Notes under the pieces: model-generated
Databases searched by the model: none
What the model was told of the DNA's origin: nothing
The model's input: the letters and a program-made list of their open reading frames with translations, nothing else
In this document: piece after piece, positions 837-20,413 of the stretch
Layout of the letters: every line of letters begins with the position of its first letter
Position numbering within the stretch: position 1 is the first letter of the stretch
Origin: an uncultured bacterium
Lineage (GTDB): Bacteria; Calescibacteriota; Calescibacteriia; Calescibacteriales; Calescibacteriaceae
Direction: 5' to 3'
Assembly (NCBI GenBank): GCA_938036315.1
Contig: CALHPK010000009.1
Span: forward strand, 124,001-188,000
DNA length: 64,000 bases
Program-made: the position numbers and the translations under genes

Positions 837-1931
837 CTAAAAGGAATATGGATATCTGAAGATTCCATCCTCAGTGATGATCGATGAGATGAGCTCTGGA
901 GGAGTTATATCAAATACGTAGTTTATAACATTGGTTTCATCATGAGTAATTTTTACCCCAAAAATTTCTTTCACCTCACGTGGGTCTCTTTGCTCCAAGG
1001 GGATAGTATCAGAGCTAACATCTATAGTTGTTTTTGGAGCAAGAACATAAAAAGGGATGGAAAAATGCTTTGACAAAATAGCAAGCATAAGAGTTCCTAT
1101 TTTGTTCGAAACCGTTCCATCTTTGAGAATCCTATCTGCCCCCGTCAGAACACAACTTATGTGGGGGGATGATTTTGACATAACAAATGCAGAAGCGGAA
1201 TCAACTATTAGCTTGAACTTTATTTTCTCTCTTATAAGCTCCCACGTTGTGAGCCTTGCCCCTTGCAAAAATGGTCTTGTCTCCAGAGAAATAACTTCTA
1301 TGTCCTTACCGAGCTTTTTGACCGCATACTTTATGGCCGAAAAAGCAGTACCCCATCCCCCGGTTGCTAAACTTCCAGTGTTACAGATAGTAAAAACAGT
1401 TCCTTCATCTGGAATGAGCTGAGCACCATTTTTCCCTATAAGGTAGCAGGATTTGAAGTCCAAAAACCAAATCTCCAAGGCTTTTCTTCTCATTCTTTCG
1501 ACCAAATCACTGCCTTGAGAACTTACAAACTCTTCCTCCATATCTTGAAGAGCTCGAAAAAGATTGTAAGCAGTCGGGCGCGAATCAAGTATTACGTTCT
1601 TTATTTCACAGAACACCTTATAATCTACTTTCTGCCCTTTCTCTACCCTTTTTTTCAATCCAAGCCAAACCCCGAAAGCGGCTGATATTCCTATTGCTGG
1701 CGCCCCCCTGACGACCATATTCTTTATGCAAAGCGCTACATCCCGTTCATCTCTGCAGATAACCCATTCTTCCCTCAAGGGCAGATACCTCTGATCTAAG
1801 AACTTGATGCAGTCATCACACAACTCAAACCAGGTATGTCTTCTCCCACCCTCTGTCTCTTCCTCAAATATCCTACTTACTTCATCACTCATCGAATCTA
1901 CTCTCAATGCTAAATCCTCCCTTGCAGTCAT
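837..1931 (-). CDS. mtnA: S-methyl-5-thioribose-1-phosphate isomerase MtnA
   Basis: Converts methylthioribose-1-phosphate to methylthioribulose-1-phosphate in methionine salvage. Hallmarks, numbered from the upstream TTG at 1940: RGAPAIG (78-84), the catalytic-Cys segment ICNTGSLATGGWGTA (Cys186), ETRPFLQGARLTTWEL, and GADRI with the catalytic Asp269, followed by DG..SNKIGT. I prefer the ATG at 1931, two bases after the TAA of the upstream gene (TAAGGATG). This gives 364 residues with about 30 more at the N-terminus than usual. Tight packing implies co-transcription and translational coupling with the TamB-like gene. No other methionine-salvage gene is in the window. MtnA belongs to the eIF-2B alpha fold family, but the Cys and Asp motifs favour MtnA itself. 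Confidence 0.93.
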   Translation of the reverse strand: MTAREDLALRVDSMSDEVSRIFEEETEGGRRHTWFELCDDCIKFLDQRYLPLREEWVICRDERDVALCIKNMVVRGAPAIGISAAFGVWLGLKKRVEKGQKVDYKVFCEIKNVILDSRPTAYNLFRALQDMEEEFVSSQGSDLVERMRRKALEIWFLDFKSCYLIGKNGAQLIPDEGTVFTICNTGSLATGGWGTAFSAIKYAVKKLGKDIEVISLETRPFLQGARLTTWELIREKIKFKLIVDSASAFVMSKSSPHISCVLTGADRILKDGTVSNKIGTLMLAILSKHFSIPFYVLAPKTTIDVSSDTIPLEQRDPREVKEIFGVKITHDETNVINYVFDITPPELISSIITEDGIFRYPYSF

Positions 1932-1933
1932 CC

Positions 1934-4900
1934 TTACCAAAACCTCATTATTGTTTTTATATCCATACCCAAATTGCCCATATTCCCAAGGCCAGAAAAT
2001 CCATATTTTTTGTTGTCCCAGGTCAACTGTAAAGATATGCTATCAGATAACCTATGTGACAACCGAAATTTCACAACTTCATCAATGATACTTTGAACAA
2101 TTTCGACTTCATTTGCTCCCCACTCTCCCGCTACCCCTACACTCGTCGGAGATATTGTCGGTCTTATAGTACCCTCCTTCAAGTTCATAGCCTCTTCAAT
2201 ACGAGAAAATAAGAATCTCACATTTCTGTACATTACAGATCCGAGTATCTTTCGGAAATCGTCTGCAGATCTACATTTTCTCAAAACAGCAATAACACAC
2301 ACTATATCTGATTCGGGAAGGGAAGGGATAGAAGATAAATATATGTTTGGAGCTCTCAGATTTCCCAGAATATTTAACTTTATCAGATAACTCTCACCAT
2401 CAAGTGTTGATATAGAATTTTGAGCAGATAAATTCACGATTATCTCTTCATTCCTCATAAAGACATTCCCCGTAATTTTTCTGAAATCCATACCAGCAAA
2501 CAAAAACGTCCCATCATGTATTTCAAATATTCCCAAAATTTTCGGAGAATCTACATATCCAACAATATATATCTGGCCACTAAGTTTCAAGTTTAAAGGA
2601 GGTTCATCATAGACAACATTCTTGAGATTTATAACTATATTTAATGGAGAACCTTTAGTTGGCTCCGCTGAGGCTGAAGCAAATATTCCTTTGGATTCAC
2701 CCGTACGAAAGCTCTGAAGCTCCGAGACAACAGAGCGAATTCTCCTATCTGAAAAGGTTTCATTTGAAATCGTCACTTCACCGAAAATACTCATAGCTCT
2801 AAGATCTCCTGAGATACTAAGTTTTCCACCAAGAGGAATACCTGCAAAACTTTTCATAAAAAGCTCGGCAGAAATTCTTTTAGTCACCATATTATAAATA
2901 CCATATAATTCTACGGGATTCTCCTTAAAACTCGCTCTCAAAGCAAAATCTAAAACATCTCTTTTTATATCGGAGGCGAAGTCAAAGTCATCAAATCTTA
3001 TCCCTTCGAAGATAAAATAACCTGATTTTACCTTTACAAAACCACTCCTATCTCTCTTACCATATGCAAACCTGAAAACCCCATCACCATAAATGGGTAA
3101 GACACTCTGTACCCCTTTGATACTTCCATCTCCATATATATCACTACCATTAGTAAAGATCATAACATCATCACTCCACACATATGCTAAAAATTTATTA
3201 GTATCGAATAAATAAGTAGCAGAGATCTGAAAATTCTCACAAGTATCACCTGAAAAATTCAGACGTTCCTGCGAGAAAGTAATTTTACCCTTAGCGCACG
3301 AACTTCTTATAGGATAATCAACAAAACTTAACTCCTGAGTAGAAACATCTATTTCTCCATAAATTTTTCCTTTCAAGTTTCCAGATACGCTCCCTAAAAA
3401 CTCAGAAACTCCAACCATACCCAAATCTACCATATCAAATCTTTGCAAATCATAAACACCTTGCAAATATGTCTTAAAGCCTCGATCATCGATTTTAGCC
3501 CTGAAGTTCACAAAAGATAATCCATCTAAACTTATTCCAGAAGAGGGACAAGCTCCTTCTTTTTCGTAATCCACTCCAACTCCCTCAAGATCTATATTAA
3601 ATCTTCCATCAAACCTTACTTTCGTTCTAACACTCAAGGATACACATTCTATTTTTTCTCCCAAGAAATTCGCGTTGCGCACATCTACATATCCGCTAAC
3701 ATTTATGCTATCTTTTAGAAAGAATTTTCCACTCCCGAAGGTAACCCCGTCTACAGGCATACTTACGCTTAGCGCTTCGAGTATTTTTTTTGCACTTACC
3801 TCAAAAAGATTAAAGTCAGCTCTCACGCTCTTTCTTCTCAAATCTGCCTCACCCCTCCACCTCACTGGATATTCTCCTACATAAATAAGCAGACTAAAAT
3901 AGGCAACATAATCCTTGAAAGATATCTTTGCCTCACCTCTTTCTATATTGATAATATCATATCTGAAATTTTTGATGTCGCCTATCAGCAGACCACCAAA
4001 CTTCGGAACCTGCGAAGACCCAGAAAATTTTAAATACCCCCTGAGATACCTGATGAGTGAAAGATCAATCGTTCCTGAGAATTTCAAATCCCCTGAACCC
4101 ATCTTAGAATCGTAGCTACCAGTAATTTCTATGCTTTCCGATTTTTCCTGACCCAGCTCTACCCTACTATTCCAATCAATTCGAACATACCCAGCATAAT
4201 CAACTACAATTTTCATCCAACTTGTGGATGATAAAAAAGTTTTAAATTCATCCCCTGATACAATCTCACTTAAAATATCTGAGAAATTACTTCCTATCTC
4301 TACAATCTTTTCCAGATCTGACATAAGTGAAACGGAAGCCATTACTTCAAACCAGTTATCCTGACAAATTACAAGATGAAAACCACTCCGAATCCGAGGA
4401 TTATAAATTTCAAACGCCCCGTCCCCTTCAGAACCTTTCAAATTCCCTCTAAAAGTAAGAATCCCGTCGGTCACCTTCCTGTCCCTGAAAATCAATGATA
4501 AGGTGGACTTCAAAGAGATCTTACCGGACAATACATTTATATTCCCATCTGAAATTATGCCGAAATCCTTCACATATAAACCAAGTGAACCAAAATCTAT
4601 GTTTACATTCAAAAGCTTCCCGATCTTCTCCCTTATCACCTCTAAAGTTGTACAAACTGAATTGAGATTCAAATCACCACCCGTGCTCCCAGAAATATCA
4701 ATACGGGCTCCACTGAGCTGGATAATGATATGATTTGGTAACCTTAATTTAAACTCAACTTGCTGAATTCCAACTACATTGGCATAGATTCCATCAGCAA
4801 CTAATTTGAAATTTTCAACTTTTACACTATCCAATTTCAGACTTTTCGCTCCGACTCCAAAGCTAACCCCCTTTGCATGAACATTCCAAATTTGAACAAG

Positions 4901-15312: not shown

Positions 15313-15891
15313 TTAAATTTTATGCAAAGGTTTATCGCTTATGATAACTTTAAGAGTATATGGATTAATTACTACCCAATTTTTTTTGTCAATCTCAATT
15401 TCAACAAATGGGATATTCAATCTCTGGAATAATATTTCAACATCTGCCCCAAATGTTTCTTCGTTTTCTACGAAAATTGCGGTGATTTCAGAACCAATTT
15501 TAATATCTTTGACTCTTTTCCACTCACATAAAATCGGTCTTACTTCTTCGAATACAAAAGGTAAAAATCCACCGAGCTGATCTTTTAGCTTCTCTATCTC
15601 TTTTTGCTTCTCCTTCCAGAGTTCATCTATTTCTCCTGATGGCACACATTCATAGATTTCAATTTTCCTGTCTTTCTTTGTAATCTTCACTTTTAGATTC
15701 TTTTTGTTTTTTACAACTTTTTCGAGAACATCGGAGAAGATTCTGTAAACAATTCTTGCGGAGCCCTTGCTCTTTTCACCTTTGGGGAGCTGGGGGAAGG
15801 CCAATATCAACACAAGTGTAAGAATAGCTATTACAACCGAGAGTTCTATAAGAGTAAAGGTTCTGAACTTAATGTGATTATTGATCTTCAC
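15313..15891 (-). CDS. Type II secretion / type IV pseudopilin, GspH-like
   Basis: 192 residues, GTG start. A short basic leader is followed by 'TFTLIELSVVIAILTLVLIL', the class III prepilin N-terminus with the conserved Glu at +5. The rest is a polar, partly helical domain without a diagnostic motif. The position right after gspG (12 bases) suggests the minor pseudopilin GspH or a related component. The residue before the predicted cleavage site is Thr instead of the usual Gly, which is unusual for prepilin peptidase substrates. The T2SS ATPase, secretin and platform genes are not in the window. Confidence 0.75.
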   Translation of the reverse strand: MKINNHIKFRTFTLIELSVVIAILTLVLILAFPQLPKGEKSKGSARIVYRIFSDVLEKVVKNKKNLKVKITKKDRKIEIYECVPSGEIDELWKEKQKEIEKLKDQLGGFLPFVFEEVRPILCEWKRVKDIKIGSEITAIFVENEETFGADVEILFQRLNIPFVEIEIDKKNWVVINPYTLKVIISDKPLHKI

Positions 15892-15903: not shown

Positions 15904-16329
15904 TTAGTATTGCAGACTTTCTCCAGCCACAGCCCCACTACCCTCTAAGCTCACATCATCCTGTGTCCCCGGAGCTCTATCAGGACCGCTAGATTTCAAA
16001 GTATAGACATTACCGTCGGATAAATAATAGTAATCTGATCCCCACGGATCTTTTGGTACTTGCCTTGCTTTAAGATATCCATTCTTGACCAAAATTGCTA
16101 TCCCTTCTTCCGTTGTAGGGTATCTTCCATTTTCTAGCCTATATAGTTCTAGAGCCTGCTCTATCATCGTAAGCTGAGCTCTTGCTGTCTTTTCCTTTGC
16201 CCGCTCGAAATACCTTATAACATTTATACCAACAAGTCCAACAAGAAGCCCTATAATCAGAACAACAACCATTATTTCTATCAGAGTAAAGGCTCTCACC
16301 CTTTGGACTCTACTTTTTCTTTCTGCCAT
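15904..16329 (-). CDS. gspG: Type II secretion major pseudopilin GspG
   Basis: 141 residues. Leader then 'AFTLIEIMVVVLIIGLLVGL', then the family's 'YPTTEEGIAILVKNGYL', 'VPKDPWGSDYYYL' and the calcium loop 'SSGPDRAPGTQDDV'. Together these identify the major pseudopilin of type II secretion. The residue before the cleavage site is Ala, not Gly; the conserved +5 Glu is present. It heads a two-gene unit with the GspH-like protein, behind a terminator that separates it from the 1342-residue surface protein upstream. A strong Shine-Dalgarno site is lacking. Confidence 0.93.
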   Translation of the reverse strand: MAERKSRVQRVRAFTLIEIMVVVLIIGLLVGLVGINVIRYFERAKEKTARAQLTMIEQALELYRLENGRYPTTEEGIAILVKNGYLKARQVPKDPWGSDYYYLSDGNVYTLKSSGPDRAPGTQDDVSLEGSGAVAGESLQY

Positions 16330-16342
16330 GAAATTCTGTTAT

Positions 16343-16377
16343 GAATAAAAAAGAAGGGGGGAACTTCCCCCCCCCTT
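16343..16377 (-). terminator. Rho-independent terminator of the 1342-residue surface protein gene
   Basis: On the minus strand a G-run/C-run hairpin (GGGGGGGAAGTTCCCCCC core, 16357-16376) just after the stop codon at 16385 is followed by TTCTTTTTTATT. It is the best terminator in the window and insulates the surface protein gene from gspG. Confidence 0.85.
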
Positions 16378-16384
16378 TGCATCT

Positions 16385-19300
16385 TTACCTTTTTCTACTC
16401 TTCAATATAGCAGAGACAAACCCAAAGAGTAAAATCATTAGCCCTAAGCTTGGAATACCAGCTGCAGAAGAAGACGAGCAACCAAATACCCCAACTTTTT
16501 CAGTAACGAAGAATCTGTGCTTATATGTAGATATATTACCTACATCATCCTTTGCTCTGACCTCAAGTATGTGCTCACCTTTTGTAAGCCCTTTAAGGTC
16601 AATCGCGGTGATCTCAGATGCAGATTTCCAACCACTCCATTCTCCACCATCAATCCTATAAGATACTAATACCACGTCTTGAGGAGCTTGTGCATCGCGA
16701 ATGTCAGCAAATACCCTTACAGAATTTCCCTTCACAACTTCGGGGGCTTGAAGTCTTATATCAGGTCCGACTGAGTCAACCCTGAAGATATACCTTGCTG
16801 GCGTTGGGTCAATAAACTTGTTCTCATCCCTAGATCTAACCTCAAACATATGGTAACCTTCAAGCAAATGAGTCAGAACAACTTCGTCACTGCTCTGCCA
16901 GAGACTCCACGTTCCCCCATCTAATCTCCAGGAGTATTTTAGTCCAGAAGAACTATTAGCACTCCACCCAGCAAACTTAATCTTTGTAAACAGAGCATGC
17001 GGATCGGATGTGTAAACTATGAAAGTCTCTGGAGGAGTTACCTTATAGCCATTGCCATTAACCTCATAGTCAGCAAGTCTTACTTGAACAGGAACCTGCG
17101 GAGCACCTCCCATGACCCCGCTGATAGTATCAACTATATCCACCCCAAAGTTTTTCAAAAGCTTTATTATATTTGTGAGAGTTGGCCTGCCTCTCCAGTG
17201 TATAAACATCTCAAAGTAATCCCCTACACCATCCGCTGGATTGCCTACAAACGGAGTGTCCCAATTCTGAACCCCGGTTCCGAACTCAGGACCAACCCAT
17301 GGGAAGTTAAGCTCTATTGGAATCTGGATCAAAGCAGTGGGATCAAGAGCTACTCTAAGTTTTGCCCCGGCAAGACCATTTAAGACCACTGGAAGAACAT
17401 TCCCAAGAATCTCAGACCACTGAGAACCTGAAAGCCCCAGAGCATTAGAGTTATAAGCTATGAAATACCTTACATCAGGGTCAGCATAAAGAGTCAGATC
17501 TATCACACGGGCAAATGTCCCCCCCTGAGGGAAATAAGCATTATCTTTATTATAAGCTTGACCAGTGTAATAATCTTTGTAAATTGATGTCAGAGGTTGG
17601 GTAAAATTAGTAGAATCATATGGCGGGAATTTAACAGTCAGACCGCAATCAGGAGATACGCACGGAACTATATCAACATCTACAGAAAGCCTAATTCCAA
17701 CTGTCAGACCGAATACCCTCATCCAGTTTCTTGAGGGGGAATTTATATCTCCTGTCGTTATAACATTAAACGAAAGATCTATATACGGCAGATCTATTGT
17801 AAGATCAGCTGTATCAAACCATGTTGAAGGACTTGGAAACATTGTGAACGAACTTCCGAATGTAGCATTTGAAACGAATTCTGACCAGAAATTAACCCTT
17901 GTTGAACCAGTCATATACACATTGTTGACAGGTCTGAAAGTAGGACCACCTGTCTTAGCATAAGCCACAACAGATAAAGGCTTGTTATATGATGCTGCTC
18001 CACCTGTATTCCCAGATGGATTTCCTGGATCTCTGTAATTTGGAATGATCTCCACTGCCATATCTTTGCCTGGGAATGCATCTTTTAATTTTGGCATAAA
18101 GAATGCAAACGAATCGGTCTTGAGGAAACCGCCAGCAAACCCCCCAAGCATTGGTGTATACTTATCTACCCAAACACAAGCAAGACCATCACCTATTGCT
18201 TCATAAAGTATACGAGAAATAAGATTGTGATGAACCGCAATCCCTACATAGTAACTTGTCAGGCTATATCCATATCTACCCTCTGCAAGCGTTGGAGCCG
18301 AAGGATATTGTGGCAAAACCTCGGAAGAGAAAACATGTGGATACACACCCGAATTATTGTTAAGAGCACCTGTACACTGGGAGACCGTTCTTACTGGAGC
18401 AGGGCAGGTAGTTTGTGGTACACATTCTCTTATTAAGTTTATTGGGCTTGTTGCAGCTTGAAGTGCTGCAAAATTTCCTTGCACACAAGTTGAAACATAG
18501 TCATTAAAGTTTTGCAGTTTAACCTGAGTAATACTTGTTGCTGGCGAATTCCACAGAACGTATCTTATATCAACCCCAACATTCATTGCAAGTATAATTC
18601 CTGCTGAGTCTGCCCAGAAATCATTTGTAAAACCAAAATCAAAAAAGATCTTATTAGGCTTGTGTGTATAGTAATCAGGAGCCCCAACATATATAACCTC
18701 CTCAGTTGGATGATCTACTGGGCTCAGGGATTTTATTATATCTTTTAAATCGAAAACCTGTCCCGGAAAGAGGAAATAAGCTATACAAGTATCATATTGA
18801 GTAACTGTGTGATTGGGGATACAATCGGTTCTGAAGTAATCAAGTGCCATAAGTCTGAGCACAGCGTCAAGCCACAGAAGAGTTTTTGCAAATTTTTGTG
18901 AAACTCTGTACTCGGGACAATACTGAGCGGTTCCAACCTGGTTCCAGTTCGGGTTTCTACACGCCGGAGTTGTAGCGGACGAACTCATTGGTACAAAGTC
19001 ATAAGCAACTCCTGCTACCAAATCCAACGCTTTCAAGTTTATACCTAATCCCCTCACAACCTTGCCCCAATCATAGTCATCAGTAAAATTTCCTTTTATC
19101 TGTATACCAAGTCTCAACCCCAAAATCGGCATCCTTATATATGCTCTTCCATTTATGTAATTTGAGATAACTCTCTCAGGATCATAATCATAATTGGTAG
19201 TGTTTTTCCCTGGGTATTGAGGGTCACATATATGCTCATCATTCTTAACATCTCTGTTTTTAAAGCAGAATGAAGCCGAGTTCGGGAAGTAAGTCGCAGA

Positions 19301-20413
19301 TGCATTAAAATTACAACTTGGTCCAAAAGATAAACAATCAATATACAAATTTTGAGATGAAACATATGGAGATGAGAATGTAAGGGCAACCTCAAAATTC
19401 CTGAGTTCAACTGTTATATCAAGATAATCATCTGTGGTATGCTCGGTATAGTCACCTTCACAAGTTGCAGTCGCTGGCCAATCTTCACCTATGTTCCCCT
19501 TAAGTCTCACAGTCAAATCTTTCCTGTTATAGTCAACAATAAGCCTATTTCCTGTAATCCGGTCTATAAAGTAGTAATTATCCCAATTCCACGGAGAAGA
19601 AGTCGGACAAACGCCAGGTAAGTCTCTCCCACACTTTCCGAACGGAGACCAGTAAAACCCACCCATAGCATATGTGATCGGATTTCCTGCTGCAGGTCCA
19701 ACTCTTTTATCTCTCTCCTGCCCCCATATTATAGCATTTACACATATCGGTGCTCCTTCATCGTTAAGAAGTGGGATTGGGAGACACATTGAAAAAAGAC
19801 CTTTACCATCGTCTTTGCAGGAATTAGTTCCCTGATCCCATGTCCCAGTTGGGTTATACCCTGCAATGTACTCAAAGTAAATTTCATTCCCAAAACAGTG
19901 AGTGGTACCTTCACCGTAGTTAAAAAGGGAAGGATTACTGGTAGTAATTCCACAGGCGTAGGTAGCATTCTGGAGGTAGTAATTTTTAGTTGGCTGGTTC
20001 GGGTAATTATTATCTATCCAGTAGGTGAAATCTGCATAATTATCCCATAGGTCAGCAACAACTTTAGTATCTGTGCATTTGTCTAAAAATCCCATTGCAA
20101 GGTAGTTTATAAGATTTGCAACAGATGGATCTCCCGAGAGTATGTCAGAAATTAAATCTCCTATCTCTTTAAGTCCTGCTTGGGTAAGCCTTACAACAAC
20201 ATTGTGCTTTTCAAGCAAGCGCCTCTCAAGAACAGCAGTGCTCGTCACACCTCCCCAAGTTATGGGGTTTTTAGGCCCCACCTGATACGGGTTGGCACTA
20301 GTTTCTGTAACCGGTCTATCCTGATGGAATGTAACAGCAAGAGTAGAATATGGGAGAACAAAAACCGCCGTAAAGATTAGCCCTACCAACGCTGATACAA
20401 TTTTTTTACCCAT
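16385..20413 (-). CDS. Large secreted surface protein with MYXO-CTERM-like C-terminal tail
   Basis: 1342 residues. A signal peptide (about 1-26, ending 'PYSTLA') leads to a long beta-rich, Cys- and Tyr-rich body that I do not recognise. Near the C-terminus two similar Ig-like units occur, each with a (W/Y)RxDGGxWSxW core ('SWRLDGGTWSLWQ', 'SYRIDGGEWSGWK') and a later EVR(S/A)(R/K)D motif. The tail is Gly-Cys (Cys1312), a Ser/Ala/Gly-rich stretch, a membrane helix and a basic end (KSRKR). That layout matches MYXO-CTERM-like sorting signals, which in known systems are exported by type II secretion and cut by an intramembrane protease. A TTGACT-17-TATATT promoter and AGGGAGGT Shine-Dalgarno site (20421-20428) suggest high expression. 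gspG/gspH lie just downstream beyond a terminator. Confidence 0.75.
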   Translation of the reverse strand: MGKKIVSALVGLIFTAVFVLPYSTLAVTFHQDRPVTETSANPYQVGPKNPITWGGVTSTAVLERRLLEKHNVVVRLTQAGLKEIGDLISDILSGDPSVANLINYLAMGFLDKCTDTKVVADLWDNYADFTYWIDNNYPNQPTKNYYLQNATYACGITTSNPSLFNYGEGTTHCFGNEIYFEYIAGYNPTGTWDQGTNSCKDDGKGLFSMCLPIPLLNDEGAPICVNAIIWGQERDKRVGPAAGNPITYAMGGFYWSPFGKCGRDLPGVCPTSSPWNWDNYYFIDRITGNRLIVDYNRKDLTVRLKGNIGEDWPATATCEGDYTEHTTDDYLDITVELRNFEVALTFSSPYVSSQNLYIDCLSFGPSCNFNASATYFPNSASFCFKNRDVKNDEHICDPQYPGKNTTNYDYDPERVISNYINGRAYIRMPILGLRLGIQIKGNFTDDYDWGKVVRGLGINLKALDLVAGVAYDFVPMSSSATTPACRNPNWNQVGTAQYCPEYRVSQKFAKTLLWLDAVLRLMALDYFRTDCIPNHTVTQYDTCIAYFLFPGQVFDLKDIIKSLSPVDHPTEEVIYVGAPDYYTHKPNKIFFDFGFTNDFWADSAGIILAMNVGVDIRYVLWNSPATSITQVKLQNFNDYVSTCVQGNFAALQAATSPINLIRECVPQTTCPAPVRTVSQCTGALNNNSGVYPHVFSSEVLPQYPSAPTLAEGRYGYSLTSYYVGIAVHHNLISRILYEAIGDGLACVWVDKYTPMLGGFAGGFLKTDSFAFFMPKLKDAFPGKDMAVEIIPNYRDPGNPSGNTGGAASYNKPLSVVAYAKTGGPTFRPVNNVYMTGSTRVNFWSEFVSNATFGSSFTMFPSPSTWFDTADLTIDLPYIDLSFNVITTGDINSPSRNWMRVFGLTVGIRLSVDVDIVPCVSPDCGLTVKFPPYDSTNFTQPLTSIYKDYYTGQAYNKDNAYFPQGGTFARVIDLTLYADPDVRYFIAYNSNALGLSGSQWSEILGNVLPVVLNGLAGAKLRVALDPTALIQIPIELNFPWVGPEFGTGVQNWDTPFVGNPADGVGDYFEMFIHWRGRPTLTNIIKLLKNFGVDIVDTISGVMGGAPQVPVQVRLADYEVNGNGYKVTPPETFIVYTSDPHALFTKIKFAGWSANSSSGLKYSWRLDGGTWSLWQSSDEVVLTHLLEGYHMFEVRSRDENKFIDPTPARYIFRVDSVGPDIRLQAPEVVKGNSVRVFADIRDAQAPQDVVLVSYRIDGGEWSGWKSASEITAIDLKGLTKGEHILEVRAKDDVGNISTYKHRFFVTEKVGVFGCSSSSAAGIPSLGLMILLFGFVSAILKSRKR

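Follow-up and report, generated by a model that had tools for sequence, protein, structure and literature searches.

A recurrent cysteine-containing C-terminal tag and a myxosortase-like protease point to a probable surface-sorting system in Calescibacteriaceae

Is the C-terminal tail of a large exported protein from an uncultured bacterium an ordinary membrane anchor, or is it a signal that is recognized and cut? The question is raised by a 64,000-nucleotide stretch of DNA, hereafter the window, from a Calescibacteriaceae genome (phylum Calescibacteriota) of hot-spring origin (1.87 Mb, 85% complete). A sequence-only reading had described a 1342-residue protein with a signal peptide at one end and G-C1312-S-S-S, a spacer, a helix and K-S-R-K-R at the other. 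The open reading frame and an alignment of orthologs bear this description out: the protein starts with MGKKIVSALVGLIFTAVFVLPYSTLA, followed by VTF, and ends with ..EKVGVFGC1312SSSSAAGIPSLGLMILLFGFVSAILKSRKR. Among the 69 open reading frames of at least 120 residues in the window, this one alone combines a cysteine, a C-terminal helix and a basic end. The locus contains the following features.

16385..20413, minus strand: tagged exported protein, 1342 residues (open reading frame; cysteine-rich body without a recognised fold, C-terminal Ig-like domain, putative sorting tag)
20336..20413, minus strand: predicted Sec signal peptide, residues 1-26, ending between STLA and VTF (read from the sequence; hydrophobic N-terminus kept in orthologs)
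16535..16672, minus strand: Y_Y_Y / OmpL47-type Ig-like domain, residues 1248-1293 (domain matches below curated cut-offs)
16388..16501, minus strand: C-terminal tag, residues 1305-1342, with KVGVFGCSSSS, spacer, membrane helix and KSRKR (tag alignments A3-A5 and genome searches)
16478..16480, minus strand: codon of the invariant Cys1312 (pattern match G000:C9:140470-140483 and ortholog alignment)
16406..16456, minus strand: C-terminal membrane helix, residues 1320-1336 (most hydrophobic 17 residues, Kyte-Doolittle mean 2.25)
15904..16329, minus strand: gspG, type II secretion major pseudopilin (TIGR01710 equivalog, 112 bits against a cut-off of 88.85)
15313..15891, minus strand: second pseudopilin-like gene, 192 residues (weak N_methyl/GFxxxE matches, N-terminal FTLIE motif; homologs at the equivalent site in relatives)

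As had been claimed, gspG directly follows the tagged gene. The gaps from the tagged gene to gspG and from there to the pseudopilin-like gene are only 55 and 12 bases, so the three genes likely form an operon. The third gene had been called GspH-like. Its prepilin-like character stands (FTLIE, weak N_methyl match), but the GspH model does not recognise the 192-residue product. The body of the tagged protein has no sequence match among solved structures, and an AlphaFold model of it built from four sequences (pLDDT 27) is too poor to use.

Close relatives of the 1342-residue protein occur in Ca. Calescibacterium nevadense, Ca. Calescibacterium sp. SKYB43, HRbin19 and BF2.bins.44. The protein is 67-69% identical to these four Calescibacteriaceae orthologs; in the alignment its body is 69-70% identical right up to the G-C-S motif, which is invariant in all five proteins. 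The residues after this motif are only 15-38% identical among the orthologs, yet in every case a hydrophobic stretch leads into a basic end. Judged from the alignment, this is the conservation pattern of a recognition motif ahead of an exchangeable helix.

The tag recurs on proteins with unrelated bodies. A profile of the ortholog tails (A3), run against five genomes, found a 2053-residue FG-GAP/PKD-like protein with a non-homologous body that ends with VVGCSVSP, a helix and RKRRKR. When another suspected protein served as the query, homology searching returned its five orthologs, which have tails of the form [L/V]-[S/K/G]-C, helix, basic end and include a 785-residue copy in the window's genome. 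In six-frame searches of the five genomes with widened versions of A3 (A4, built from three groups, and A5), nine of the first 12 new matches in the A4 round lay at the C-termini of long open reading frames, one was an internal fusion and two were spurious. These two profiles added, among others, RCC1 proteins, a lipobox-bearing group of 600-650 residues, a peptidase M19-like protein and one that carries a thermolysin-propeptide motif. A plain DNA pattern for G-C-S/T x3 had a low yield (100 matches against 59 for the reversed pattern), with one of its loci carrying a genuine tagged RCC1 protein.

Together the five genomes hold 42 tails on about ten groups of proteins, grouped by body similarity and otherwise unrelated. 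The bodies are of surface type: RCC1, the MopE metal-binding motif, FG-GAP, choice-of-anchor D/VesB-like Ig and CarboxypepD_reg. The cysteine is preceded by G in 37 of these tails and followed by S in 32, frequencies that are biased because the set was gathered with models that reward the motif. The independent evidence in this set consists of the positions at the ends of open reading frames and the unrelated bodies. The helix begins 2-10 residues past the cysteine and is followed by basic residues; 26-42 residues lie beyond the cysteine, except in the internal tags and in one frame that continues further. The cysteine is present in 21 of 21 rows of alignment A5. In the genome of the window we found nine tagged proteins, eight with terminal tags and one with an internal tag. 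The prediction that further proteins of this genome would carry similar tails is thus confirmed by at least eight cases besides the window protein.

Contig C9, 38428-40782: tagged protein, 785 residues (homology search)
Contig C1, 202135-207798: tagged RCC1 protein, 1888 residues
Contig C6, 185735-187630: tagged RCC1 protein, 632 residues
Contig C25: tagged RCC1 protein, cut by the contig end
Contig C26, 6966-8861: tagged protein, 632 residues
Contig C3, 29631-31451: tagged protein, 607 residues
Contig C31: tagged fragment
Contig C1, 88792-95514: internally tagged protein, 2241 residues

A 1910-residue homolog of the 2053-residue protein in this genome (G000:C10, L075/L076) has a lipobox and no C-terminal tag, nor is there a tail in other frames past its stop. 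A tag model trained on unrelated proteins from other genomes placed the window tail ahead of everything else in the window, but at E 0.038, which is no better than reversed decoys (E 0.012, or 0.0024 with a wider training set). With the held-out score at decoy level, the membership of the window tail rests on its motif, its position and its orthologs.

If the tail is cut, the genome should be searched for a sorting protease, and the sequence-only reading had suggested a CPBP or rhomboid-type enzyme. PF02517 (CPBP) finds a single protein (C6:54623-55252), whose best NCBIfam match is Mrt_core (NF040914, 86.9 bits), followed by MrtP/MrtC/MrtX/MrtS/MrtZ/MrtJ. Exactly one such match is present in each of the relatives as well (94.8-98.6 bits), so that all five family genomes encode one Mrt-type CPBP protein alongside tagged proteins; the five scores, 88-99 bits in the comparison across genomes, lie just below the curated Mrt_core cut-off of 100 bits. 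By comparison, generic CPBP proteins of other genomes reach 20-44 bits, three Mrt-like ones excepted. The active-site residues of the CPBP family (EExxxR, FxxxH, H) are invariant as E118, E119, R123, F156, H160 and H196. In a small tree, which is based on a short alignment with several long branches and one row of noise (L054), the family proteases cluster with Mrt proteins from other lineages that exceed the cut-off, apart from generic CPBP proteins (87/92 support). Solved structures gave no sequence match to the Mrt-like protease. In the window's genome, a diacylglycerol-kinase-like gene (L001:260-1192, plus strand) abuts the start of the protease gene; this neighbour was not seen in the relatives. 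Mrt_core proteins above the curated cut-off also occur in two genomes of other families (L037 in G018 and L036 in G024). A large exported-looking open reading frame directly follows the gene in L037 and may encode a tagged substrate.

We are fairly confident that the tail is a cysteine-type C-terminal sorting signal processed by the single myxosortase-like CPBP protease of this genome. This Calescibacteriota lineage probably uses a version of the myxobacterial surface-anchoring system that is its own and has not been described before. What we observed directly is the tag on a range of unrelated exported proteins, the unique protease with intact active-site residues and the presence of GspD, GspG and Lgt; from the myxobacterial system, which has been studied by experiment, we infer lipidation of Cys1312, cleavage of the tail and export by type II secretion. 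In such a pathway Sec would export the precursor, and the C-terminal helix with its cytoplasmic K/R residues would keep it anchored in the inner membrane, Cys1312 lying directly outside. This residue would be lipidated, the Mrt-like protease would cleave distal to it, and type II transport would carry the product to the cell surface. In the myxobacterial system, cleavage of MYXO-CTERM by MrtX has been demonstrated and requires the conserved cysteines, while lipidation is still a hypothesis (PMC11980579).

A competing proposal accepts a myxosortase-type tag but does without type II secretion: the tagged proteins would arrive at the surface in some other way, or remain in the inner membrane or periplasm, and gspG would be an accidental neighbour. 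Our search for type II components covered GspD and GspG (both over cut-off). GspD reaches 477 bits, and its gene lies far away, 11 kb from the protease gene and outside any gsp operon, which leaves room for another route. So do the N-terminal lipoboxes of several tagged proteins, which could anchor them otherwise, and the locus in Ca. C. nevadense, where the trio is broken and aroA instead of gspG lies downstream of the ortholog. Against this, four of the five genomes retain the trio of tagged protein, gspG and pseudopilin, even though the window and its relatives have different genes on the outer sides of the trio. MYXO-CTERM proteins of Myxococcus also depend on type II secretion (PMC11980579). 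We consider this competing proposal somewhat unlikely.

N-terminal lipoprotein signals are found on the tagged proteins L176, L178, L144, L187 and L183, and also on L175, L068 and L192 (for example LLFSLSC/AGS and IILFLAC/GGT). An N-terminal lipobox together with a C-terminal tag would mean lipid anchors at both ends of the protein.

Tags inside longer chains bear on whether cutting occurs at all. Internally tagged proteins of about 2240 residues are present in three genomes, namely that of the window, G001 and G003 (L191:293-7015, minus strand; L193:2118-8831; L194:2657-9388). Their first part combines a signal peptide with several choice-of-anchor D / VesB-like Ig domains and GGGCSCS[A/S]SS. 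After this motif come a helix, basic residues (RRKK), another export-like helix, a long stretch that appears beta-rich by eye and an OmpA domain. A tag in mid-chain with a further export signal behind it implies that the chain is cut. The same order around an internal tag is known from MXAN_5598 of M. xanthus, which consists of adhesin, internal MYXO-CTERM, outer-membrane barrel and OmpA (PMC11980579). The fusion is atypical in M. xanthus, and its presence here in at least three genomes argues for functional design rather than accident. The OmpA part resembles that of myxobacterial TraB (E 2.7e-16 in L193). In G001, another protein, which has a MopE motif, carries NYGCSTS as an internal tag and a helix after it.

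Could the tail nevertheless be an ordinary membrane anchor that is never cut, with a structural or incidental cysteine and a CPBP protein that serves another role? The free variation of the residues after GCS among orthologs would suit such an anchor, as would the decoy-level score of the window tail in the held-out profile. However, an anchor does not need G-C-S right before the helix, a motif that recurs on about ten unrelated exported groups. It also leaves aside the exactly one Mrt-type protease match in every family genome, and the internal tags with their second export helix and OmpA domain are most easily explained by cutting. A plain anchor is, in our view, quite unlikely.

Cleavage by a rhomboid protease, along a route like that of GlyGly-CTERM and rhombosortase, is hardly credible: the genome does encode one rhomboid along with a type II secretin, and the tails are Gly/Ser-rich, but the fixed residue is a cysteine, which fits the CPBP/Mrt route (PMC11980579), and a rhomboid is found in 14 of 14 control genomes. 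The sole rhomboid was also considered as a rhombosortase and rejected (18.8 bits against a cut-off of 84; closer to GlpG-type models).

The preferred reading, a cysteine tag cut by a Mrt-like protease, has its closest counterpart in MYXO-CTERM and MrtX of Myxococcota. In both systems the tail is tripartite (invariant cysteine, helix, basic end), the many substrates carry signal peptides, an adhesin/OmpA fusion with an internal tag occurs, and the genome has type II secretion genes and a Mrt-family CPBP glutamic intramembrane protease. They differ in phylum and in consensus, which is G-C-S-x-S in Calescibacteriaceae with a basic end that mixes K and R, whereas generic MYXO-CTERM has GCGC. The Calescibacteriaceae system also has about nine substrates found, compared to dozens, and a protease that scores 68 bits to MrtX, below the cut-off of 180. 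TIGR03901 (MYXO-CTERM) has no match in the window's genome even at E 10, nor any to the window protein. The systems of MrtP, MrtC, MrtZ, MrtS/Synerg-CTERM and MrtJ/JDVT-CTERM share the protease superfamily and core, yet the protease of this genome falls below the cut-off of every model. MrtP ranks first or second by score for this protease and its relatives, and this protease reaches 87 bits against a cut-off of 250. None of the NCBIfam CTERM tail models matches the tagged proteins. GlyGly-CTERM tails (Vibrio, Acinetobacter) share the Gly/Ser-rich stretch, the helix, the basic end and the link to type II secretion, and VesB-like Ig domains occur on some tagged bodies in Calescibacteriaceae. 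In contrast to these tails, the Calescibacteriaceae tag has a fixed cysteine and a candidate protease of CPBP rather than rhombosortase type. The earlier description of a MYXO-CTERM-like sorting tail thus holds for a recurring tag with a Mrt-type protease, but the tag falls outside the MYXO-CTERM and GlyGly-CTERM families as they are modelled.

In the literature covered, which did not extend to the 2024 in-silico myxosortase study by Haft, we came across no account of such a system for Calescibacteriota; sortases and secretion go unmentioned in the 2016 paper on the Calescamantes genome. The present finding would bring cysteine-type C-terminal sorting into an uncultured, deep-branching phylum of thermophiles whose small genomes measure about 2 Mb. 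Current models miss both partners: no tag model fires, and the protease falls just under the curated cut-off.

Which enzyme lipidates the cysteine is an open question in the myxobacterial system. A compact system with one protease, about nine substrates and two Lgt-like proteins seems well suited for asking it. The window's genome encodes a canonical Lgt (contig C4) and, on the same contig, a second Lgt-domain protein of 566 residues (positions 1414-3111 of locus L133, around G000:C4:14050-14802). In this paralogue, which keeps a GCCYG motif, the Lgt domain leads into a lipobox-like segment (LISQFSSC) and then an extracytoplasmic domain at the C-terminus. One may speculate that Calescibacteriota have a self-contained cysteine-tag pathway, in which this Lgt-like acyltransferase lipidates the C-terminal cysteine, substrates are lipidated at both ends and internal-tag polyproteins are split into an adhesin and an OmpA-type outer-membrane protein; we regard this combination as unlikely. 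The gene for the 566-residue protein adjoins an ABC transporter gene.
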